Source: Lewinellaceae bacterium (GTDB lineage: Bacteria > Bacteroidota > Bacteroidia > Chitinophagales > Saprospiraceae). From it: a stretch of 46,511 nucleotides of DNA. Every line of letters begins with the position of its first letter. The stretch's first letter is position 1. A model generated the notes under the pieces. The model saw only the letters and a program-made list of their open reading frames with translations, had not been told where the DNA came from and did no database searches. The stretch lies in NCBI GenBank assembly GCA_947459655.1, contig CANHEE010000008.1, positions 1 to 46,511 of the forward strand, read 5' to 3'. The position numbers and the translations under genes are program-made. This document shows, one piece after another, positions 11,593 through 45,898 of the stretch.

Positions 11593-12513
11593 TTACTTCA
11601 TTTCAGGTTTGGAAACCAGTTTTTTCTGATCGATTGAGTAACCTATTGTCAGCTCATGTGCACCTCCGGAGTACTGCTGAAAACGCTGCATACCATAATC
11701 ATAGGAGTATGCAAAAGTCAGGCCATTAATTTTGGTTCCAACCATGACACCAATACCTCCACCTGTTCCCGCCCGGTATCCAACCGCACCGATTACACGC
11801 TCGTTCAAGAATGAGCCTTTCAGATTAAGATCAACCCTGAATGGTGCATCAATCATCTTTTGGAAAAAAAGTGACGGTTCAATTTTCACCGCACCAACCT
11901 GCTGTTTGAGACCCATCATCACATTGAAATAACGAAGTCCACCCCTCGTGGTGCTGTTGCCGGCAATGTCAGATAGGCGAGCCTGAATCAGGTTGGGCAT
12001 GGCAACGCTAAAAATAAACTTGTCCATGTACACACCATAGGCACCCATGGTTGCATCAAAGTAGCTCTGGCCAGCGAGCGACTGCTCAGCAATGTTGTCA
12101 CCGGGTTTGTACAAACCATTGTTCAGAACACTTGCATTCAGGCTGAGTCTTTTGAATTCCGTGGAAAGACCAAGACTTCCTTTCAGGTCGTTAATTTTGA
12201 ATTTGAAAGCGTAGGACAGCAAGCCCCTAAAACGGCTTAGGTTTGCTGCGTTTTCGTTGCTTGCAAAAGCACCAAATCCCAGCTTCTCGCCTATCGGACC
12301 GTTATAGTTGAGTCCCACTGTTCTTGGAGCTCCATCAAAGCCGGTCCACTGGTTTTTATAGTGTACCAGGAAATTGTGCTCGTTGTTAAATCCTGAAGCA
12401 GCAGGATTGATGAGAACAGGGTTCATGATGTAATGAGAAAATATCATTTCATCCTGTGCCTCAGCACTAAGCGTTGCAAAAGCAACAATTATGAGTATGG
12501 CTATTCTTTTCAT
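11593..12513 (-). CDS. PorP/SprF family T9SS membrane protein
   Basis: A 306-residue outer-membrane protein. The ATG at 12511-12513 is preferred over a further upstream start because it begins a clean signal peptide (MKRIAILIIVAFATLSAEAQ) and has a GGAGG-like stretch upstream. After the signal comes the family hallmark: FSHYIMNPVLINPAASG, then HYKNQWTGFDGAPRTVGLN. The remainder is alternating beta strands typical of a small barrel, ending in a strand near ELTIGYSI. PorP/SprF proteins act with type B T9SS cargo, for example SprF with SprB. The giant type B adhesin lies directly upstream on the same strand, 128 bp away, so the two are very likely a partner pair in one operon. Confidence 0.92.
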   Translation of the reverse strand: MKRIAILIIVAFATLSAEAQDEMIFSHYIMNPVLINPAASGFNNEHNFLVHYKNQWTGFDGAPRTVGLNYNGPIGEKLGFGAFASNENAANLSRFRGLLSYAFKFKINDLKGSLGLSTEFKRLSLNASVLNNGLYKPGDNIAEQSLAGQSYFDATMGAYGVYMDKFIFSVAMPNLIQARLSDIAGNSTTRGGLRYFNVMMGLKQQVGAVKIEPSLFFQKMIDAPFRVDLNLKGSFLNERVIGAVGYRAGTGGGIGVMVGTKINGLTFAYSYDYGMQRFQQYSGGAHELTIGYSIDQKKLVSKPEMK

Positions 12514-12641
12514 TTCAAGAGATTTACACCTCCATAAAATCACATTTTTCTGCAATGGAAACGATCCATTGCTTTAAAATATGGTTTTCGGTTGGGATAT
12601 TTTGTGATAGTTTAAAATTTCGGTTATTGGATTTAGCAGAT

Positions 12642-15600
12642 TTATTCACCGCTGATGATGGAAAATGAACCTTTGTATCTTGTATATTTTCCGGTATCAA
12701 GCAATACTTCAATCACGTAATAATATGGGCCATCAGGAAGCGGATTACCTTTTGAATCTAGCCCCAGCCAGGTCCTGTTTTCATAGTTTTGCTTACTGAA
12801 TACCAATTGACCCCATCTGTTGAAAATTTCCAACGTGTTGTAGTTCTTTCCAATCTGGATATACTTCTCGAGACAGAAAATTTCGAATTCATCATTGTAG
12901 CCATCTCCATTCGGTGTTATAACCGGTGTTGCTTTCAGGCAGTCCAGATTACTTGGATCACCCAGATAGCCATCAGCAAAGCTTTCACAACCATTTGCGT
13001 CAGTAACATTCACGAAGACGCGCCCCTCAGGAAGGTTGGTTAACTTCGGAGTGGTCATATCATTGTGCCACCTGTAGAAATATGGAGAGGTCCCACCAAT
13101 TACAACCGCCTCGGCACTCTTGTCTGCTGCATCAATGACTACAGTGGTTGTCAATTTTTCCGGGCCCAAAAGCGTAACAATACCCTCAAAATTTTCATTG
13201 TTTGCATCCGTAACTGTCACACGCTGTACTCCGGCACAAAGACCCTTCGCTATTCTGGAGGTATCTCCATTGCTCCATTTGTAACGAAGCGGCGGAACTG
13301 CATCGAAAACACTCTTAACCTCCGCAATTCCATTACAGATACCATAACAACGGATGTTAACACCGTTAAAGAATGATCTTACAGCAATCTCAACTGAACT
13401 TCCCTGACCTAGTTGGAAGGACCTCGTGATCTGACAACCACTTGTGTTGTCGGTAACAGTAACAGTATAAGTCCCCGCTCTTAATCCGCTTGCAGAGGCT
13501 GTAGTGCTGATATTTGAAGGCCATTTGTATGTGTAATCTCCGGAACCGCCACTTACTGTCAAGACCGCAGCACCATTCTTGGCAGTATTCGGTGAGGGAT
13601 CGGTTGTTACGACAGACAACAGAAGTGTAGTTTTTGCAGACAGCTGTATGTTGTCTCTTGAACACGATGCACCTGTTGCGTCGGTGACAGTTACACTATA
13701 CTGCCCCTCTGAAACATTAGTCAGGTCTTTACCCGTCAGTGCAATCACGGCACCGTTTTTAGTCCATTTGTACGTGTAAGGTGATTTGCCCCCGGTTACC
13801 AGCAATTCAATGATACCATCATTTGAATCACTACATGCAGGCTGAACTATTCGGTTTACAACCGGACATGGTCTGGCTGATCGTGCAACTACGATTCCAC
13901 TTTTTACTGAAGTACATCCTTTTGCGTCTGTAAGTGTAACGGTATATGTTCCTTCACAAAGTCCTCCGGGATCCTGAACATCGGGAATCCCCGCAGAGGG
14001 GCCTGACCACTTGTAGGTATAAGGACTTGTGCCACCTGTCACAGATAAATCAATCAAACCTTTGCAGTTGTCTCCTGCATCTGTGACCTGTGAAACTGAA
14101 ATAATCGGTCCGGCACTAGGATCAATAAAAATACTGAAGGTTGTGTTGAGGTTGTATTTCTGGTCGGATACTGTAATTTTATACTCTCCCGTCGCAAGAT
14201 TTCCGGCAGTATTGCTGTTTCCTACCTGAGATGGGCCGCTCCATGCGTAATTGTAAAGAGAGCTACCACCGCTGGCGATGAGCTCAGCAGCACCATTGTT
14301 TTGTCCACAGGACGTATGGATTACAGTATTGCCTTTCAGCTTCACCACAATAGGCTGTACATCAATTTTTTGTGTAGTAGTAAGGGTACAATCGTTTGCA
14401 TCTCTGACTACTACCGTGTAGGTTCCCGGTTCAAGTCCACTAATGTCCTGGGAGGTTGAGCCTGTAAATGGCGGAGGTGTTGGCCAAACGTAGGTCGGTA
14501 CATTTCCAACTCCGGTCCACTGATATGTTTTTGTCCCAGTCCCACCAGTCACCTCGATGTCGATTGATCCGTTCGGTGCGTTTTTTACGGAAGGTGCCAC
14601 TGAGAATGCAAGTGCCGGAGGTGAGGTAATGGAAAATGTTCTGACCGTATTAACCTTATTGTCAGCAGATGTGATGGTTACAATGTATGTTCCAGGAACT
14701 AAGTTATTAAGGTCTTTAGTTGTTTCACCGCCGGGATTCCACTTATAGGATAGTGGTGAAGCTCCTGCACCGGTAATGGTCAGCGCTATGCTACCATTTG
14801 CATTTCCTGCACACTTTACAGTTGTAGGAGCAGTATTTTCAACGCCCAGTGCAAGTATATTTTTAGTGACTGTACAAGCTCCCACCCCAACTGTTGCAAT
14901 ATACTCTACTCCGACCTGCGGACTGGTAAATGTTGCACCTGTGGCAACAACAGTGGTTGGATTGGATGCTGTAGCCCAGCTAACGAAAGAGCTGGTGGCA
15001 TTCATCACAATGCCTATTTCATTCTGAACAAGGCTGGTAATGGAGGGTGCAGCTGATGAAACAACAGTTGTCTCCGCAGTTCCGGTAAGACAAGTTGCAT
15101 TGTCTACAGCCGTAACCTTGTAAAGTCCCTCGGAGGTAACCGTAATGGTTTTTCCCGTTTTGGCACCACCTGGTCCGGACCATTGGTAGGTATAGTTTCC
15201 GGTTGTAGCAACATTTGCTGTTACTGTACCGGTGCCGGCGCACAAACCTGAATTTGTAGCAGTTACCACCGGTGGAATACTGATGCTCACACTTCCATCT
15301 CCCATAGGAACGTTCTCCTGAGGTACACCATTTCTGGTCACCTCGTTACCACCTGTAAATGTTATGGCAGCTGTTGAACCCAGTCCCCCTACCGCCTGGA
15401 AACAAATTGTAAATAGCGCCTTGCCGTCCTCAACAGACAAAGGATTTGAAGACCAATCCAGTGCAAAATTCAGGCGATTGGGTAGAATGAATGCAAAATT
15501 GTTGCCCAGTTCAACAACTGCTGCACCGGACTCAGTACGCTGGTACTGAAGTTTCACATTGTCCCAGGTAATGGCAAATTGCAGACCCTCGACAGCGCTG

Positions 15601-17003
15601 AAGTTTTTTACAACCACACCAACACATACCTCTCCATTCGCAGAAATCGTAACATTTTTAATGTTCAGCAGCTTGTCGTAGTTTGGCTGAACGCAGATAA
15701 CTGGGGGTGGATTTCCTGAGCAAATAGATACTTTGCCGTTTCTGGTATTTATAATGGCAATATCAGTAGACTGGCCATTTATTTCTTTCGCACCACTGAT
15801 TGGTGTTGGGCTTTCTGCAAAGGAAACAACCCCTTCCGCATTACCAATTTTCTTGAAACAAATTTCAAAAAGTACATCTCCGTTGGCTTTTGTCACACCC
15901 TGTCCTGAAGGATCATCCCAGAAAAAACCCAATTTCCCGTTGTCTTTTTGAAGTGCATTGATGTTGGCAGCTACTGTAGCACCGGTAAAATTGATTTTAT
16001 CATCCTTTATTCCTAAGTACTGCAGGTTGGCGGTATTCCAATTGACAGAGAAACTCAAACCTTGAATCAGGTTAAAGTTTCCAACTGCTACACGTACACA
16101 TACCTGGTCATCTGCCTTTGAAACGAACTCTTCGGAGAGCGCGAGTGTAAGATCGCTGCCAATTCCGATAGGAAATGTCCATGTATTGCTACAGTCTACA
16201 GTTGTTTCCTTGACAACCGTTATACTGAATGAACAGGTGGCAGTATTTCCTGCAGCATCGGTAGCACGGTAAACTACCGTAGAAGATCCGATGGGCACAC
16301 ATGCTCCGCTTGAGGGACCTGAAATTTGTGTAACGGTAGGGGTTCCACAACCATCGGTAGCCTGTGGAGTTGTCCATGTAGCCGTTGCGCAGGTGGATGG
16401 TGTTGTTAAATTAATGTTTGTGCAGGCACCAAAAGCAGGAGGCGTAACATCCGGACTACAGGGATTTCCACCCCCGCCGCCGCCGATTGTGTTCAGCACC
16501 GGATCGAATACAAATGCCGCTGTTCCCGATGGAAGATTGTCAACTCCCGGTCCAAATACTTCAGGCGCCAAAGGTGAATCAGAAAAACCGATTCCAACAG
16601 TTCCGCTGACCAGTGATTTGAACACAAGGGTCATAGTGGTAGAATTGTCCGGCAATGACTTTGGAAGTCCATCAGGAGTTCCCCACAATATGGTGATTTT
16701 TCCCGTAGCAAGCAGCTGCGTAGAAACACCCGGGGTTGTACCACCTCCAGAGGGAAGATAGGTTGGGTTATTTACATCGGGACCAAATCCGACAAACTCC
16801 AGTTTCGAGGGATCAAATGCATAGGTGTACTGGTAGCCCTCGATGTTGGTGAATTTAGTCACCTTCACGGCAAAGGACACCTGCGCGTTTGCATTGGCAT
16901 TCTGAGTTTTGGGCGAAATGGAGAATTGAACTTGTGCGGAGGAATTCCACGTGGTAACTGCAATAAACAAGGCAGTAAGCAGGAGCTGGTAGAACCTGTT
17001 CAT
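12642..17003 (-). CDS. Giant cohesin-like/HYR/SprB-repeat adhesin, T9SS type B cargo
   Basis: The ATG at 17001-17003 is chosen because it starts a signal peptide (MNRFYQLLLTALF..., cut after SSAQ), giving 1453 residues. Domain order: a cohesin-like beta-sandwich (about 25-180), an HYR domain (about 190-275, with TDGCGTPTV and YRATDAAGNTATCSF), two more cohesin-like domains (about 280-440 and 440-590), Ig/PKD-like modules (about 590-730), then about eight SprB-type repeats (about 730-1345, with GGxSPYxYKW and GTYTVTVTD signatures). The final 95 residues are a type B sorting domain (TPNGDGYNDEFEI, then IFNRWGQLVF and LPDGPYYYVI). It should be exported by T9SS to the cell surface with help from the adjacent PorP/SprF protein. 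A gliding-type or attachment adhesin role is inferred. Confidence 0.9.
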   Translation of the reverse strand: MNRFYQLLLTALFIAVTTWNSSAQVQFSISPKTQNANANAQVSFAVKVTKFTNIEGYQYTYAFDPSKLEFVGFGPDVNNPTYLPSGGGTTPGVSTQLLATGKITILWGTPDGLPKSLPDNSTTMTLVFKSLVSGTVGIGFSDSPLAPEVFGPGVDNLPSGTAAFVFDPVLNTIGGGGGGNPCSPDVTPPAFGACTNINLTTPSTCATATWTTPQATDGCGTPTVTQISGPSSGACVPIGSSTVVYRATDAAGNTATCSFSITVVKETTVDCSNTWTFPIGIGSDLTLALSEEFVSKADDQVCVRVAVGNFNLIQGLSFSVNWNTANLQYLGIKDDKINFTGATVAANINALQKDNGKLGFFWDDPSGQGVTKANGDVLFEICFKKIGNAEGVVSFAESPTPISGAKEINGQSTDIAIINTRNGKVSICSGNPPPVICVQPNYDKLLNIKNVTISANGEVCVGVVVKNFSAVEGLQFAITWDNVKLQYQRTESGAAVVELGNNFAFILPNRLNFALDWSSNPLSVEDGKALFTICFQAVGGLGSTAAITFTGGNEVTRNGVPQENVPMGDGSVSISIPPVVTATNSGLCAGTGTVTANVATTGNYTYQWSGPGGAKTGKTITVTSEGLYKVTAVDNATCLTGTAETTVVSSAAPSITSLVQNEIGIVMNATSSFVSWATASNPTTVVATGATFTSPQVGVEYIATVGVGACTVTKNILALGVENTAPTTVKCAGNANGSIALTITGAGASPLSYKWNPGGETTKDLNNLVPGTYIVTITSADNKVNTVRTFSITSPPALAFSVAPSVKNAPNGSIDIEVTGGTGTKTYQWTGVGNVPTYVWPTPPPFTGSTSQDISGLEPGTYTVVVRDANDCTLTTTQKIDVQPIVVKLKGNTVIHTSCGQNNGAAELIASGGSSLYNYAWSGPSQVGNSNTAGNLATGEYKITVSDQKYNLNTTFSIFIDPSAGPIISVSQVTDAGDNCKGLIDLSVTGGTSPYTYKWSGPSAGIPDVQDPGGLCEGTYTVTLTDAKGCTSVKSGIVVARSARPCPVVNRIVQPACSDSNDGIIELLVTGGKSPYTYKWTKNGAVIALTGKDLTNVSEGQYSVTVTDATGASCSRDNIQLSAKTTLLLSVVTTDPSPNTAKNGAAVLTVSGGSGDYTYKWPSNISTTASASGLRAGTYTVTVTDNTSGCQITRSFQLGQGSSVEIAVRSFFNGVNIRCYGICNGIAEVKSVFDAVPPLRYKWSNGDTSRIAKGLCAGVQRVTVTDANNENFEGIVTLLGPEKLTTTVVIDAADKSAEAVVIGGTSPYFYRWHNDMTTPKLTNLPEGRVFVNVTDANGCESFADGYLGDPSNLDCLKATPVITPNGDGYNDEFEIFCLEKYIQIGKNYNTLEIFNRWGQLVFSKQNYENRTWLGLDSKGNPLPDGPYYYVIEVLLDTGKYTRYKGSFSIISGE

Positions 17004-17032
17004 GAGGAAATTGGATTGGGATGAACTAATAA

Positions 17033-17065
17033 TCTCGGGCATCATTTTCAATGATGTGTCCGAGA
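17033..17065 (-). promoter_or_regulatory. Hairpin in leader of the giant adhesin gene
   Basis: TCTCGG at 17033-17038 pairs with CCGAGA at 17060-17065, and the stem continues inward with GGCAT/ATG pairing and a small bulge. On the coding (minus) strand it sits 30 nt before the start codon and has no T tract after it, so it is more likely a leader structure than a terminator. On the plus strand five T residues follow it, but no plus-strand gene is present to need a terminator. Confidence 0.4.
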
Positions 17066-29030: not shown

Positions 29031-32000
29031 CTACCTCAGGATAGTAATATCTCCCCTGTATGAAAGCCCATCAGGCAGATTCAGATCAAGCAGATAGTAG
29101 TAGGTGCCTTCAGGCAGGTCCTTACCATCACCATTTGTACCACCCCAATTGTTTGTATAGGGTTGGCCCGACTTGTAAACAAGATCACCCCAACGATTGA
29201 ATACCAGCAACTGTGCATTTTTAAACCGCTCAGGCTGATAGTCAATTGCATCAATCATAAACACATCGTTTTTACCATCGCCATTCGGCGTTATGGTATT
29301 TGGAATCTGGATGTCCTGACAGAAATTGGGATCCCTCGCTACAGTGATACGAACCACAGCTGTATCGCATTTTGAGGGACAGATTTCACTGCAAATGCGG
29401 TATTGAAACTCCTGAATTCCGTTGTAGCATGGCCTCGGTAGATAGGCAAGCACACCCTTTGCAGATCCGGTCTCCAATCTGCCCAAAGCAGGTGACTTCA
29501 GTACCTCAATTTTCCAGTCACGAGAAGCTTTAACATTGTCATTAATCATAACGGTCAGCGGAAATGCAGCCCCGTTGTTTGCAAACGAAAAATCATCATT
29601 CACCGCAACGGGTGTTCTCTCTGAAAAAATTTCAATGGTATCAGTCGAAAAATCAGGACAACCTTTGGCGGACAATTTCCACACAAAACGATTTCGTCCA
29701 GGATAAAGCGAATCCACTGTTGTCACATTGCTGTTCACATCAGTTATTGAGGCTCCATCGAGACTGTTCCAAACACCTTTGACGGGCCCCGAGATCGTGC
29801 CTTGCAGAGTAAATCCAGTGCTGTTGCAAAGCAAAGTGTCATTTCCTGCAAATCCTTTTTCGGGAAAGACAAATTTTATCTGATGCGATACACTGTCTGT
29901 ACAACCATTGGAGGCACTCTGAACTTTTAGAAAATAGGTCCCCGCTGTTGTCACAGATGCATTTGAAAGCACTGAACTCGAGGAAAATTTACCATCTGGT
30001 GTAGTCCATTTAAAAACATCTGCCCGGAGGGAGCCCATACCGAAAAGAGTAACAGAATCTGCTCCGCAGGTAATTTCTTTCAACCCGATAATTTTTGCGG
30101 TCGGCCGAAGAAAATCCTCCCTGATATTCAAAGAATCAATAGTGCTGCAATTTGTCCTCCTATCTGTGACCCTCAGGTAATATGTTCCTGCTCCTGAAAC
30201 CAGCGGATTAAGCGTTTTGGCGCCGGAATTAATGGCACCGTTTCCCGTAGACCAGTTCACTTCAAAATCAGGACCTGCAGGTGCGATGCCGTTCAGTTTC
30301 ACCTGTGGATGATAACAGTTGAGCAGGGAATCATTTCCCGCATTTACCCCCTGTGGATAGTTTGGCTGAAAAACGCTTACGGTAGCCTTTGATGCACAAA
30401 AACTTCTCGTATTGAAAACACTGAGTACATAGGTTCCTGCGCGATCGACAACAGGAGAAGAAGTAGCAGAACCACTGATAATTCTTCCCGAACTGCCTGC
30501 CGGAACTTCCCAGCTGAATCGCACATTTGGACCCGTTGTTGAAGATTTTCCGTCAAGGATGGCAGGTCTGCCGTCGCAATTTAATCTCACAGGACTGACT
30601 ACTACTGCCGATACTGTGTCTTTGCTAACATCGTATACAACTACAGTATCCACAGCGACACAGGAAAGGGCATTTGTCACCACAAGTACATATGTTCCCG
30701 CCTTTCTTACTGTTGCACGAACACCAGTATCATCAGTTATCGCATTGTTTTGAACGGAGGTCCATTTGTACGAAACCCCTGCACCTTTGGAAGAGTTGGA
30801 GGCATCCAGAAAAACGAATGAATTTTTGCAATTGATGGTGTCCTGTACCACAGCTTTGGCAAAAGGAGTATTGGCATCGCTGACGACATCCGTTTTTGAT
30901 ACTGCCGCACAGCCATTTTGTGTCAGCGTGACGGTAAGTATGTATAAACCCTTTCCCACAACGAGCGGGTCACATTGGGTAAAATTACTGACAACTTTTC
31001 CGCCGTTCGGCGAGGACCATCTGAAAATCGTCCCGACAGATGTGGATTTGCAACCATCCAGTGTAACTGGTGCTGTAAAATTACAAGGCACAAGAATCTC
31101 AGGGCCGGCATTGGCAACTGGTGCACCAGAAGGCGCAGTAATAATTACCCTGCTGGTATCACTGCAACCATTGCGCAGATCGGTGACCATCAATGCATAC
31201 GGATAGGCACTTAACGCCTTTGCTGTAAGCAGTGTATCGGGACCATCAATCACGCCATTTTCAGATATCCATCTGTAGCGGTAAAAAGGTCCCACGGAAG
31301 AACCGGTACCATCCAAAGCAACGAATGAGCCGGGGCTGCATTCCAATTGACCGGTAGCAGTAGCTCTAACAATTGGTTTGGCAAGATCGCCCGCAAGGTC
31401 AAAAGTGAGGACTAGGAGATTTGGTTTGGGCGCATTGTCTGTTACGGTACAATAATAAATACCGGTTGACAGGTTTCGGGCCTGCTCATTGGTACTGTTG
31501 CCCGCAGCTGCACTCCATTGGTATTTGTAGGGTGGAATGCCTCCATTGATATTAAGGGTTACCATCCCTCCGAATGGCAGTTTACAGTTTGGCTGCACAA
31601 TCAATGCGTTTGATAGCTTGATTCTGCTTTCTACGAGAATCGGACAATTGTCGGCAGTCGCATAGACACCAATATCAAATCCCTGTGATGCCTTGCTGAA
31701 GGCTTCCGCAGGAACAGGAATCGGTGACAATACAATTCCCTGACTCAACCCAACAACACCTTTAGACCTTAGACAAAGCTCAAAAATGACTGTACTGTCT
31801 TTCAGACTTGTATAGTTTATGCTTTCAAACAGAAAAGCGAAAAAACCATTGGCAGTATCAGGATTAAAAGTCCAAATGACATTATTCACGCCCGTTGGCG
31901 GAGTAAGGTTACTGTATTTTAGGTAATCAAACAAGGCAGGATCCCATGAGAGGGTTCCTTTTAGTCCACCGATGCTGTCAAAATCTGCGACATGTACCGG

Positions 32001-33017
32001 AATGCATATTTCATCACCGGCTTTCAGTTGTCTGGTCTTATTTTCATCGCAGAACCACAATTTTACCGGATCTATTTTGGCAGGTATCTGTACGCAACCT
32101 GCGTTGAAAATCAGCCCGACATTCTGACCATTGGATTTGTCCGTGACAATACTTGCTGTCCGAGGTCCCTGCTGAATACAGGTCAGTTCGCCCTCATCAC
32201 CCTTTACATTCAGGCAAATAGTAAAAAGCACCGTGCTATCAGGAATGGAAAGGCTGGAGACAGCAGAAAGATCTGCAGTCCAGTTGATTTGCAATATTCC
32301 TGCATTGACATTTACAGTATAAAATGGCGTGGCGGAACCCTGCGGAGCAAACTGCAGATTAAAATTGCTGAGTTTAACAAAAGTGAGTGAATTGATGTCC
32401 CAGTTCAGATCCAATGCAAATTTTTTAGTTTGTATAAAATCAAAAACCCTGATGGGAAGGCAAATCTCTGTTCCTTTTTTTGCCCTACCCTTATCAACAT
32501 TTAACCTGACAGGTCTGAGCGCTGAGTTTACGATGGCAACTTTATTGCAATCACGGTATTTGAAAGGCAGCAAATCGTTAGCAATATTTGTAAATTCGGT
32601 ATTTATGCCGGTTTCCTGAAATCTGAGGCAGTCAAAATCATTGACCTGCCCTTTGATCCGGAAGCAGATGCTGAAAGCAGTGACATCATCCGGCAAAGTC
32701 TGTCCGGTTGGTGCATCGTACAAAAACCGCAATGTGCCGGTAGCATTGTTAGCGAAAAAATTGTTCGTCTGACTTATTCCGGGTAGAAATCCTTTCTGAA
32801 TTTTAACAAATTCCAGTTTGGATGGCGTAAAACCAAGCGTCCACTGCGCACTCTGAATATCCTTAAAATTTTTGAAGGAGACAGCAACACATACCGTGTC
32901 GCCGGGAGAGCCTGTAATGGCAGAAAGATTGATAAAAACCGTATCTGTCTGCGATGTAGCACGCTCTGAGCAAAACATCGTCAAACAAATGGTCAAAAAC
33001 AAAAGTAATTTTTTCAT
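29031..33017 (-). CDS. Cohesin-like/PKD-repeat adhesin, T9SS type B cargo
   Basis: A 1328-residue secreted protein with a signal peptide (1-22, cut after ATSQ). Three cohesin-like beta-sandwich domains come first (about 23-165, 170-312, 316-465), each with a GDTVCVAVSFKNF- or GDEICIPVHV-like strand and an SICF-type strand. Next is one SprB-like repeat (about 470-545) and seven PKD/Ig-like repeats of about 80 residues with conserved Cys (about 545-1125). A cadherin/VCBS-like module follows (about 1130-1230, with AVNDDFSF). The type B sorting domain ends the protein (about 1235-1328: TPNGDGKNDVFMID, LLVFNRWGDLVYKSG, LPEGTYYYLLDL). It should be surface-exposed through T9SS. The PorP/SprF gene directly upstream on the same strand is the likely export partner. 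Confidence 0.9.
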   Translation of the reverse strand: MKKLLLFLTICLTMFCSERATSQTDTVFINLSAITGSPGDTVCVAVSFKNFKDIQSAQWTLGFTPSKLEFVKIQKGFLPGISQTNNFFANNATGTLRFLYDAPTGQTLPDDVTAFSICFRIKGQVNDFDCLRFQETGINTEFTNIANDLLPFKYRDCNKVAIVNSALRPVRLNVDKGRAKKGTEICLPIRVFDFIQTKKFALDLNWDINSLTFVKLSNFNLQFAPQGSATPFYTVNVNAGILQINWTADLSAVSSLSIPDSTVLFTICLNVKGDEGELTCIQQGPRTASIVTDKSNGQNVGLIFNAGCVQIPAKIDPVKLWFCDENKTRQLKAGDEICIPVHVADFDSIGGLKGTLSWDPALFDYLKYSNLTPPTGVNNVIWTFNPDTANGFFAFLFESINYTSLKDSTVIFELCLRSKGVVGLSQGIVLSPIPVPAEAFSKASQGFDIGVYATADNCPILVESRIKLSNALIVQPNCKLPFGGMVTLNINGGIPPYKYQWSAAAGNSTNEQARNLSTGIYYCTVTDNAPKPNLLVLTFDLAGDLAKPIVRATATGQLECSPGSFVALDGTGSSVGPFYRYRWISENGVIDGPDTLLTAKALSAYPYALMVTDLRNGCSDTSRVIITAPSGAPVANAGPEILVPCNFTAPVTLDGCKSTSVGTIFRWSSPNGGKVVSNFTQCDPLVVGKGLYILTVTLTQNGCAAVSKTDVVSDANTPFAKAVVQDTINCKNSFVFLDASNSSKGAGVSYKWTSVQNNAITDDTGVRATVRKAGTYVLVVTNALSCVAVDTVVVYDVSKDTVSAVVVSPVRLNCDGRPAILDGKSSTTGPNVRFSWEVPAGSSGRIISGSATSSPVVDRAGTYVLSVFNTRSFCASKATVSVFQPNYPQGVNAGNDSLLNCYHPQVKLNGIAPAGPDFEVNWSTGNGAINSGAKTLNPLVSGAGTYYLRVTDRRTNCSTIDSLNIREDFLRPTAKIIGLKEITCGADSVTLFGMGSLRADVFKWTTPDGKFSSSSVLSNASVTTAGTYFLKVQSASNGCTDSVSHQIKFVFPEKGFAGNDTLLCNSTGFTLQGTISGPVKGVWNSLDGASITDVNSNVTTVDSLYPGRNRFVWKLSAKGCPDFSTDTIEIFSERTPVAVNDDFSFANNGAAFPLTVMINDNVKASRDWKIEVLKSPALGRLETGSAKGVLAYLPRPCYNGIQEFQYRICSEICPSKCDTAVVRITVARDPNFCQDIQIPNTITPNGDGKNDVFMIDAIDYQPERFKNAQLLVFNRWGDLVYKSGQPYTNNWGGTNGDGKDLPEGTYYYLLDLNLPDGLSYRGDITILR

Positions 33018-33101: not shown

Positions 33102-34064
33102 CTATCTGCCACCAAAAGAGTAACTCACGCTGAATTCGTGCGTAGATCCGGCAAACGGTCCTATTCTGCTGAACGAATAATCAAAGCCATAACCCAGCCG
33201 AAGCAAACCATCCATTCCGGAATCAAAATTGAAGCCGGTTTCCGCGTGAAAATTCCCTCCGCTGGAGGCGCCAAGACCAATCCACAAGGCCTGAATAAGC
33301 TGATACCTTAGATTTAAATCCACATTTACAGGGGTGTTGGGGACATATTTTAACCAAAGCGAGGTCTGTATAAATTTTTCCCTATCCTCAATAGAATGAA
33401 GCCAGCTGAATTGCCCGTAATAATGCTGAATCCTGCGTACAGAAAAAGTCTGGTCATCATTTCTGAACCGCAGATTCAATCCCATTAGTTGCGGAACCGA
33501 AAGTCCTCCCGAAAGCATATCGTCATCAAAGAATCCCGGTACAGAGATTTTTTTCCAGCAGAAAACGCCCATTCCGATATCGGGATAAAGCTGTGTTCTT
33601 CTTCCTGCAGCCAAAAAGTCATCTGCGTCGCGGACTTTTATTTTGTCGGTATCAAGGTGGTATGAAACGAGTCCTCCACTAAAAGCTGCAGAAAAACCGC
33701 CCTCCTCTGCATCATCGCTGAACGCGGCTCCGAATTTGCCGTAAATGCCCGTCATTCCAAGCGGACCGGTAACATCCCTAATTGCAGAGGCTCCGTACAT
33801 GGGAGAAAAAGCGTTCCCGCTATAGGCATCAATGTGCTCGTAACGCAGCACTTGGGTTTCAGGAGCATTGTCAATACCCGTCCACTGCTTGCGGTATGAT
33901 GCACCTGCTGCAGTAGTCAGATTGTATATCAGAAAATCGGAAGAAGGAGCCGCTGGATTGATGACGCCCAGATTATCCCTGTATTGGGTGAACAGAGGCA
34001 GCTGTTGCGCACCGGCAAAATATGTTACAAATATTAACGCAGTAAGCAGCGCTGACTTAGTCAT
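33102..34064 (-). CDS. PorP/SprF family T9SS membrane protein
   Basis: A 320-residue protein with a signal peptide (MTKSALLTALIFVTYFAGAQ). The family opening follows: LFTQYRDNLGVINPAAPSS, then ASYRKQWTGIDNAPETQVL. The rest is beta-rich and ends in HEFSVSYSFGGR, a typical barrel end. It is the second PorP/SprF homologue in the window and lies 84 bp upstream of the second giant type B adhesin on the same strand, so the two are likely co-transcribed. The order is partner then cargo here, the reverse of the first pair. The 289-bp gap on its upstream side holds a bidirectional terminator hairpin. Confidence 0.92.
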   Translation of the reverse strand: MTKSALLTALIFVTYFAGAQQLPLFTQYRDNLGVINPAAPSSDFLIYNLTTAAGASYRKQWTGIDNAPETQVLRYEHIDAYSGNAFSPMYGASAIRDVTGPLGMTGIYGKFGAAFSDDAEEGGFSAAFSGGLVSYHLDTDKIKVRDADDFLAAGRRTQLYPDIGMGVFCWKKISVPGFFDDDMLSGGLSVPQLMGLNLRFRNDDQTFSVRRIQHYYGQFSWLHSIEDREKFIQTSLWLKYVPNTPVNVDLNLRYQLIQALWIGLGASSGGNFHAETGFNFDSGMDGLLRLGYGFDYSFSRIGPFAGSTHEFSVSYSFGGR

Positions 34065-43958: not shown

Positions 43959-45017
43959 TTAATGAACTTCAAAGCGCTGGAGCTGCTCCAGCAGCAGTTC
44001 GTTTTCCTGCAGAGTACCCACTGTTATCCTTATGCAGTAAGGTAAGTCGGGCACGATGCCTACCAATATTCCGGCTGCCTTCAAAAACCCAATCACCGTC
44101 GCAGCCTGAACACGACATTTGACCAGTAAAAAATTGGCATCAGAAGGATAGACACATTCTATCAGAGGCAGATCCGCCAGTCGATTTGCAAAATAATTCC
44201 GCAAAGCAACAATGTCTTTGATGCGGCTGTTGATCAATTCAAGCTGTTCAATAGCCTGCGATGCAATTGCTATTGCAGGCTGACTGATGCTTGTGTGAAC
44301 CGTACCAAGCTGATTCAGAATTGCTGCAAGATCCCGCTGCGCAATGGCCATGGCAATCCGCAAACCCGCAAGACCCCAGGCGATAGAGAGTGTCTGCAAA
44401 ACAATCAGATTGGGATACTCTTCCAGAGAGCCAACCAGACTACGCTGCCGGGAAAAGTTTATATAGGCTTCATCAACAACCAGAATTCCGTCAAAGTTAT
44501 TCAGCAGCACTTCAATATTGTGAAAATGAGCAGCATTACCGGTCGGATTATTCGGTGAGCAAAGAATGATCGCCTTCGTGAAATAATCAACCTGTTGGGC
44601 AATGGCCTCAATATCCGGTTGAAAAGCACTGTCTAAAGGCACTTTTTTGACCTGCACATTTTGCAACATGGCAACCCTTTCATAAATCGCACTCGTAGGT
44701 GTGCATACAAGAATATTGTCCTCGGCAGGTTCACAAAATGCACTGATGATCCTGGACAATAGCATCTCTGTTCCATTTGCAAGACAAATTTGCTGAGCAT
44801 GCACGCGCTTAACCTGTGCCACTTGTGTGAGAAAACTAACCATATCTTTCTCCGAATAGCGGTGGTAATCCAACCCGGCAGGCGAACCAAACGGATTTTC
44901 ATTGGCATTCAGCAAAATACTGCCATCCTTTTTCACGGCACTCTCAAACGGCTGATCGGGCCTAAAAACAAGTCTTTTCACGTGCTCCCGAAGTAAATTT
45001 TCAAACATCTGAGCCAT
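43959..45017 (-). CDS. HisC-like fold-type I aminotransferase lacking the PLP lysine
   Basis: A 352-residue protein with the histidinol-phosphate aminotransferase layout: SILLNANENPFGSP (about 31-44), LANGTEMLLSRII, CSPNNPTGNAAHF (PLP-contact Asn), GILVVDEAYINF (Asp and Tyr contacts), GLAGLRIAMA (phosphate Arg) and YCIRITVGT (substrate Arg). The PLP-lysine should stand in the TLSKAxGLAGLR block, but here residue 212 is Ile (codon ATC, plus-strand 44382-44384). AAA or AAG to ATC needs two base changes, so a single read error does not explain it. Without that Lys the usual Schiff base cannot form, so the aminotransferase reaction is doubtful. The reading frame is otherwise intact. It starts 11 bp after the UbiA gene and is probably in its operon. 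Confidence 0.85.
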   Translation of the reverse strand: MAQMFENLLREHVKRLVFRPDQPFESAVKKDGSILLNANENPFGSPAGLDYHRYSEKDMVSFLTQVAQVKRVHAQQICLANGTEMLLSRIISAFCEPAEDNILVCTPTSAIYERVAMLQNVQVKKVPLDSAFQPDIEAIAQQVDYFTKAIILCSPNNPTGNAAHFHNIEVLLNNFDGILVVDEAYINFSRQRSLVGSLEEYPNLIVLQTLSIAWGLAGLRIAMAIAQRDLAAILNQLGTVHTSISQPAIAIASQAIEQLELINSRIKDIVALRNYFANRLADLPLIECVYPSDANFLLVKCRVQAATVIGFLKAAGILVGIVPDLPYCIRITVGTLQENELLLEQLQRFEVH

Positions 45018-45028
45018 CTTTCCGGATT

Positions 45029-45898
45029 TCAGTTAAAATAGATATCAACGACAAACAAGCCTCCAAAAATTAGACTGGCAATACCGTTCGTGGTAAAAAA
45101 TGCGACGTCAACCTTTGAAAGGTCGTCGTGACGGACCAATGTGTGCTGATAAACCAGTAGTACAATGAAACAGGCAGTTGCGAGCCAGATGACCCAATCA
45201 AATACCTGAAAGTAGTGGCAGGTCTGATATACCGCATAGGTAAGGATTAGCGCACTGAAAAGATGCATGAATTTAGAGAGCCACAGTGCATTTCGGGGCC
45301 CCAGGACAACCGGTATCGAAAAAAGTCTTTGCGACTGGTCGAAAGCTTCATCCTGCAATGCGTAAATGATGTCAAAACCACCTACCCACAAAAGCACCAC
45401 GGCAGAAAAAAGCAGCGGTATTTCTGCATAATAGCCGGTTACGGCCAGAAATGCACCTATCGGTGCAAGCGACAATCCCAGACCCAGCACCAGGTGACAA
45501 AGGGAAGTGAAACGCTTGGTATAGCTGTAGCCCAAAATCACCAGAAGGGCAACAGGCGAGAGTGAAAAACAAAGAGAATTGATAAAAAATGTTGTTAGGA
45601 TGAATGCCGCTCCATTCAGCAATACGAAAATCAGCGCCCTGTTCGCTCCTATAATTCCGGCCGGAATCTCTCTGCCCCTGGTGCGTGGATTAACCAAATC
45701 AATTTCCCTGTCAAGGTAACGGTTGAATGCCATTGCAGCACTTCGGGCGAATACCATGCACAGTACCACCTTAAGGAGTAAAAGGGAGTCGACAGACTTG
45801 TTTGTGTATAATGTGCCAAGAAAAAAACCCACCAAAGCAAAAGGCATGGCAAATATGGTATGAGAGAATTTGATAAGAGAAAGGTAATTCTTTAACAT
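45029..45898 (-). CDS. UbiA-family prenyltransferase
   Basis: The ATG at 45896-45898 is preferred (289 residues); a longer in-frame start adds 18 residues without family character. It is an inner-membrane enzyme with about eight helices. The first Asp-rich motif is FNRYLDREIDLVNPRTRGRE (NxxxDxxxD) and the second is YALQDEAFDQ; both bind Mg-diphosphate of the prenyl donor. The DIIYALQDEAFDQSQRLFSI form is typical of 4-hydroxybenzoate-type/MqnP-like enzymes used in ubiquinone or futalosine-pathway menaquinone synthesis. In Bacteroidota menaquinone is usual, so MqnP is possible but not proven. The HisC-like gene follows after 11 bp. Confidence 0.9.
   Translation of the reverse strand: MLKNYLSLIKFSHTIFAMPFALVGFFLGTLYTNKSVDSLLLLKVVLCMVFARSAAMAFNRYLDREIDLVNPRTRGREIPAGIIGANRALIFVLLNGAAFILTTFFINSLCFSLSPVALLVILGYSYTKRFTSLCHLVLGLGLSLAPIGAFLAVTGYYAEIPLLFSAVVLLWVGGFDIIYALQDEAFDQSQRLFSIPVVLGPRNALWLSKFMHLFSALILTYAVYQTCHYFQVFDWVIWLATACFIVLLVYQHTLVRHDDLSKVDVAFFTTNGIASLIFGGLFVVDIYFN

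Follow-up and report, generated by a model that had tools for sequence, protein, structure and literature searches.

In the HspAT of M. tuberculosis the substrate phosphate is held by Arg337, Arg346 and Asn176, and the imidazole and amino group are contacted by Tyr25, Asn103 and Tyr127 (PMC4703992); by position, Arg337, Arg346, Tyr25 and Tyr127 would correspond to Arg322, Arg335, Tyr20 and Tyr110 of E. coli HisC. PLP-enzyme folds without the PLP lysine have been described in serine palmitoyltransferase, where SPT1/LCB1 lacks the residue and SPT2 carries it (PMC6148460), and in ColD and E1, where a His stands in place of the Lys and PMP is used (PMC8987622). A search of open-access papers, in which absence counts as weak evidence, yielded no lysine-less HisC. 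An aminotransferase that loses its PLP lysine should cease to work; the loss nevertheless recurs in HisC homologues within one bacterial order, for the most part where the genome has no his pathway.

In the 46,511-nucleotide stretch of DNA analysed here (the window), a HisC-like reading frame of 352 amino acids runs along the minus strand from 43959 to 45017 and is a candidate pseudoenzyme, its codon at the Schiff-base lysine position being ATC for Ile212 (44382..44384, minus strand; GAT on the plus strand). The window protein's LQTLSIAWGLAGLR matches LQTLSKAWGLAGLR without a gap, with the Ile opposite Lys214 of E. coli HisC (1fg3), the residue that forms the Schiff base, so that an earlier note's report of an intact frame with Ile instead of the PLP lysine is borne out, as is its count of two base changes from Lys to ATC. 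The 80 closest homologues in a set of genomes from bacteria and archaea, which are 41-46% identical and belong to Chitinophagaceae, Sphingobacteriaceae and other Bacteroidota, all have the lysine, and neither these database homologues nor the genomes of the order held a close relative sharing the Ile. Nor does another lysine take over by alignment: the 11 lysines of the window protein correspond to residues 15, 27, 28, 58, 71, 125, 126, 148, 270, 303 and 315 of E. coli HisC, and none aligns to the Schiff-base site, so the observation withstands that check as well. A search for a relocated lysine gave nothing convincing. Its sole candidate is Lys57 (44847-44849; E. coli 58), which lies right behind the cross-subunit Tyr54 (Tyr55 in E. 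coli) and is alone in being both unusual, with Lys in 0/169 Lys-containing homologues at this position, and possibly near the pocket.

The protein scores 142.1 bits with PF00155 (Aminotran_1_2; cut-off 19.7, E 3.4e-41), and its best named family is TIGR01141 hisC, where 266.4 bits fall slightly below the cut-off of 276.55. An AlphaFold2 model built on a 40-sequence alignment has a mean pLDDT of 90.4, with low confidence in the N-terminal lid, and is predicted to adopt the HisC fold, superposing on 1fg3 with Z 37.9 and an rmsd of 1.6 A over 302 residues; E. coli-type HisC structures together give Z 37-38 and 1.4-1.6 A, and Foldseek likewise returns them as matches. Within this fold, the protein departs from a functional HisC not only at Lys214 but also at Tyr110 and Arg322. 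The substrate-side Tyr110 is replaced by Ser109 (44691..44693, minus strand) at a position that is Tyr or Phe in 165/169 Lys-containing homologues, and the substrate-binding Arg322 (role from PMC4703992), Arg in 164 of the 169, by Gly320 (44058..44060, minus strand). Asp85 has become Glu84, and Tyr20 is not retained either. The earlier statement that the other contacts are kept thus fails for these four residues and holds for Tyr54, Asn156, Asp182, Tyr185, Ser211, Arg220 and Arg330 (E. coli Tyr55, Asn157, Asp184, Tyr187, Ser213, Arg222 and Arg335), among which Arg222 occurs in 168/169 Lys-containing homologues, and Tyr55, Asp184, Tyr187, Ser213 and Arg335 in all 169. Asp182, the pyridine-nitrogen partner (44472..44474, minus strand), and Arg330, the substrate anion anchor (44028..44030, minus strand), are furthermore retained in every orphan homologue examined. 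Overall, 39 of 59 near-invariant positions survive and 20 are changed. Judged by its residues, then, the window protein is damaged on the substrate side, mostly preserved in its PLP cradle and devoid of the lysine. It may perhaps bind PLP or PMP non-covalently, and could be the PLP/PMP carrier suggested earlier, given that the cofactor cradle has largely been spared.

The same residues bear on whether the codon is an assembly or sequencing error in an otherwise ordinary HisC. The genome is indeed a draft, its 175 contigs adding up to 2.99 Mb at an estimated completeness of 99.8%, but an error would have to comprise two base changes and leave the frame intact, and orphan relatives in other genomes show like losses. 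Because the equivalents of Tyr110 and Arg322 are lost from the same gene, and because Arg330, the predicted fold and the greater part of the PLP cradle survive, we regard such a slip as extremely improbable.

HisD, IGPD/HisB and HisG, the three further histidine-pathway enzymes to which our search extended, have no match in the window genome; among 14 control genomes, 13 match them. The bacterium therefore looks like a histidine auxotroph, as far as its gene content tells. The gene lies outside a his operon, as previously described, and the UbiA prenyltransferase neighbour is also real: an MqnP-like gene at 45029..45898 on the minus strand, 11 bp upstream of the HisC-like gene and probably co-transcribed with it. 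Elsewhere the genome encodes two proteins with PF02621, which belong to the futalosine pathway for menaquinone; what ties the HisC-like protein to that pathway is gene position, and nothing beyond position. A conserved pairing with UbiA was considered and rejected, as the neighbour is found in the window genome only. Farther along the window, two very large repetitive surface-type proteins (12642-17051 and 29031-33017) each adjoin a same-strand PorP/SprF-like protein (11593-12555 and 33102-34064), all recognised by eye.

The search for a second, lysine-containing HisC in this genome, proposed as a check, found none, and the next aminotransferase matches reach 23-28% identity over partial length only. 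This bears on the idea that the protein serves another PLP enzyme as an activator or as a subunit that is itself inactive, pairing in the manner of a prozyme with a Lys-bearing aminotransferase. SPT1/LCB1 shows that fold-type I subunits can lack the Lys (PMC6148460), and a relative with an Arg paralogue, G319, still has a Lys HisC; in the window genome, however, no HisC-like partner was found, nor is there an aminotransferase partner gene in the neighbourhood, and we consider this arrangement improbable.

We surveyed 398 genomes of the order, comparing HisC-profile and HisD match tables by eye and counting as strong those HisC homologues with E below about 1e-80. A strong homologue without HisD is present in 13 genomes, and in every one of them the active site is damaged. 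Nine lack the lysine, with Ile in the window protein, His in G032, Arg in G021 and G233, Ser in four g73 species and Tyr in G378; the remaining four (G065, G294, G307 and G373) retain it, and in every one of these Tyr110 and Arg322 are gone. Asp184 and Arg335 persist in all orphan homologues examined. The likely order of erosion is substrate residues first, then the lysine and, in some lineages, the PLP cradle.

These substitutions also inform the possibility of a different chemistry, be it PMP catalysis with another base or a lysine contributed by a different part of the dimer, for example Lys57 of the other subunit. The mostly kept cradle, the unusual Lys57, the His of G032 and the precedent of ColD and E1, which use His for Lys with PMP (PMC8987622), speak for it. 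Yet where those enzymes have a catalytic His the window protein has Ile212, which cannot act as a base, and a ColD-like enzyme, as entertained in the earlier note, is therefore unlikely, His occurring only in the relative G032. Moreover, Tyr110 and Arg322 are gone, the orphans vary freely at the site (I, H, R, S, G, N, Y), the pattern that an unused residue would show, and the cradle itself is broken in the Arg and Ser clades. Together, these points make an alternative chemistry a poor prospect.

Within the window's own family a paralogue clade carries Arg, Gly, Ser or Asn at the lysine site, and some of its genomes still hold a normal his-operon HisC, as does G319 with its Arg paralogue and Lys HisC. 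A Flavin_Reduct (PF01613) gene lies directly 5' of the HisC paralogue in 11 of 15 paralogue-clade genomes, and these flavin-reductase-like proteins are 56-74% identical to that of G021. Such pairs, in which the HisC paralogue is mostly Lys-less, were seen at L178 6075-8186 (G319), L115 6774-8932 (G021), L176 7785-9872 (G400), L175 6072-8169 (G373) and others. An E1/E3-like reading of the clade, with an aminotransferase fold served by a flavin reductase, was dropped because the PLP cradle is mostly broken. The four Ser copies adjoin not a flavin reductase but genes resembling carotenoid genes; by eye, the Ser-bearing paralogues stand beside phytoene desaturase/phytoene synthase-like genes at L174 7513-11960 (G342) and L184 3399-7848 (G331). 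A his-operon remnant is present in G032 and G065, two genomes without HisD or HisG, where a stand-alone gene for a HisB-N-type HAD phosphatase overlaps with the HisC-like gene (L114 7781-9390 with His in G032; L182 7079-8694 with Lys in G065). The phosphatases of the two genomes are 79% identical, the HisC-like proteins only 56%. A corresponding partner for the window protein was rejected, as its genome has only a HAD protein of 25% identity.

On the trees, the Lys-less proteins fall into separate groups, namely the family-f1 paralogue clade, the f21 pair G233/G378, G032, whose neighbour G065 has kept its Lys, and the window protein. The 34-row tree requires a minimum of three changes, and a single loss suffices within the paralogue clade; with at least that one added, about four losses result, and we conclude that the lysine was lost independently at least about four times in the order. 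The branch of the window protein is very long (2.27 changes per site), and its place is therefore unsure. A quick tree joined it and G032 with G065, which would make the Ile and the His a single loss event, but a careful tree did not, and an AU test weakly rejects uniting the two (p 0.038); we have set this event aside. Firm placement beside the HisC of its own family or beside f9 was likewise given up, as both are unsupported yet not clearly rejected (p 0.06), so that the window gene may have been acquired horizontally. Identity reaches 46% to Chitinophaga-type HisC versus 42% to HisC of its own family.

Selection can be measured in some of the relatives. When the Ser copies are compared in pairs, dN/dS comes to 0.04-0.06; for the Arg copies whose dS is measurable, most pairs give 0.07-0.10, a distant one gives 0.12, and a near-identical pair with two differences is uninformative. 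Given these low ratios, these genes of Lys-less relatives are under strong purifying selection after loss of the lysine. For the window gene the genome collections offer no comparably close sequence, so its own dN/dS is not measurable; selection on it is inferred just indirectly, and slow decay is for this reason the main rival. According to that account, the his pathway is gone and HisC lingers under little or no selection with its frame still unbroken, in line with the missing pathway, the very long branch, the 20 altered near-invariant positions, the lack of relatives that would show conservation of the gene and the many further HisD-less genomes of the order that have no strong HisC homologue at all. 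Against it stand the intact 352-aa frame with a normal codon-position composition resembling that of its neighbours, the high-confidence predicted fold and the clear purifying selection on related Lys-less genes. Neutral drift would also probably have broken the frame: in simulation 18%, 2.7%, 0.4% and 0% of frames stayed stop-free at 10, 20, 30 and 40% amino-acid change (0/4000 at the last), an argument weakened by the fact that some of the gene's divergence may predate the lysine loss. We consider a decaying relic unlikely, though a good deal less so than a misread codon, a paired subunit or a new chemistry.

In light of these results, we think it probable that the window gene is a HisC-derived pseudoenzyme, kept without a role in transamination after loss of the his pathway. 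Since the his genes searched for are absent, the substrate residues and the lysine are lost and relatives are eroded alike, with purifying selection on them where it can be measured, the pseudoenzyme is the best supported of the options raised earlier; a regulatory role, which had been attached to it, would go further than these findings. In its favour are the joint loss of Lys, Tyr110 and Arg322 in a fold predicted to be kept, a frame left open on a long branch, the Asp184 and Arg335 common to all orphans, and the conserved pairing of Lys-less paralogues with flavin-reductase-like genes. On the other side, 20/59 near-invariant positions are lost, the UbiA neighbourhood is confined to this genome, close relatives are lacking, loss of the lysine may be a late event on the long branch, and retention of Asp184 and Arg335 could be purely structural.

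As to mechanism, a lineage losing its histidine pathway would have retained HisC alone, for a job without transamination, with Tyr110 and Arg322 presumably lost first and the Schiff-base lysine afterwards, but with the fold, Asp184 and the anchoring Arg335 retained throughout. A protein so altered should not run the normal PLP aminotransferase cycle, and most likely it would have a binding or scaffold role centred on the pocket of the fixed Asp184 and Arg335, its ligand being a carboxylate or phosphate, perhaps PLP or PMP held non-covalently, and would act on a partner; for this particular gene we infer function, binding role and any partner alike. A bolder generalization, which we offer tentatively as somewhat doubtful, is that HisC of this order has an old, catalysis-independent second function, for which it is kept once the pathway disappears, its active site decaying in a repeatable order of substrate residues, PLP lysine and PLP cradle around the fixed fold, Asp184 and Arg335, the window protein being one such independent conversion. 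HisC thus offers a natural test bed for the passage from enzyme to pseudoenzyme, with intermediates that have kept the lysine and lost substrate residues still in existence. The altered, seemingly dead HisC genes of the relatives are held under selection and so probably have a new job, and an automatic annotation of hisC as present is no proof that the pathway step exists.

Close counterparts of the window protein are the order's other orphan HisC-like proteins, with His (G032), Arg (G021, G233, G319b and others), Ser (g73), Asn (G573), Gly (G400) or Tyr (G378), which like it have the lysine replaced, Tyr110 and Arg322 lost and Asp184 and Arg335 kept, and come mostly from genomes without the his pathway; they differ in the residue at the site, in their neighbours and in their separate losses on the trees. 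SPT1/LCB1 is likewise a PLP-enzyme fold without the PLP lysine and is functional in the cell (PMC6148460), but it belongs to a different subfamily and forms a heteromer with the Lys-bearing SPT2, no such partner being found here. The NDP-sugar 3-dehydratases ColD, E1 and SpnQ share the aminotransferase fold and a replaced lysine (PMC8987622), yet they use a catalytic His and PMP on nucleotide sugars, whereas the window protein has Ile and belongs to the HisC subfamily. From HisC itself (TIGR01141; E. coli 1fg3, 1gew and 1gex) it is set apart by Ile for the Schiff-base Lys, the missing Tyr110 and Arg322, a score under the family cut-off and a genome without HisG, HisD and HisB, while it shares with HisC the family, at 41-46% identity to its nearest members, the fold, most of the PLP cradle and Arg335.
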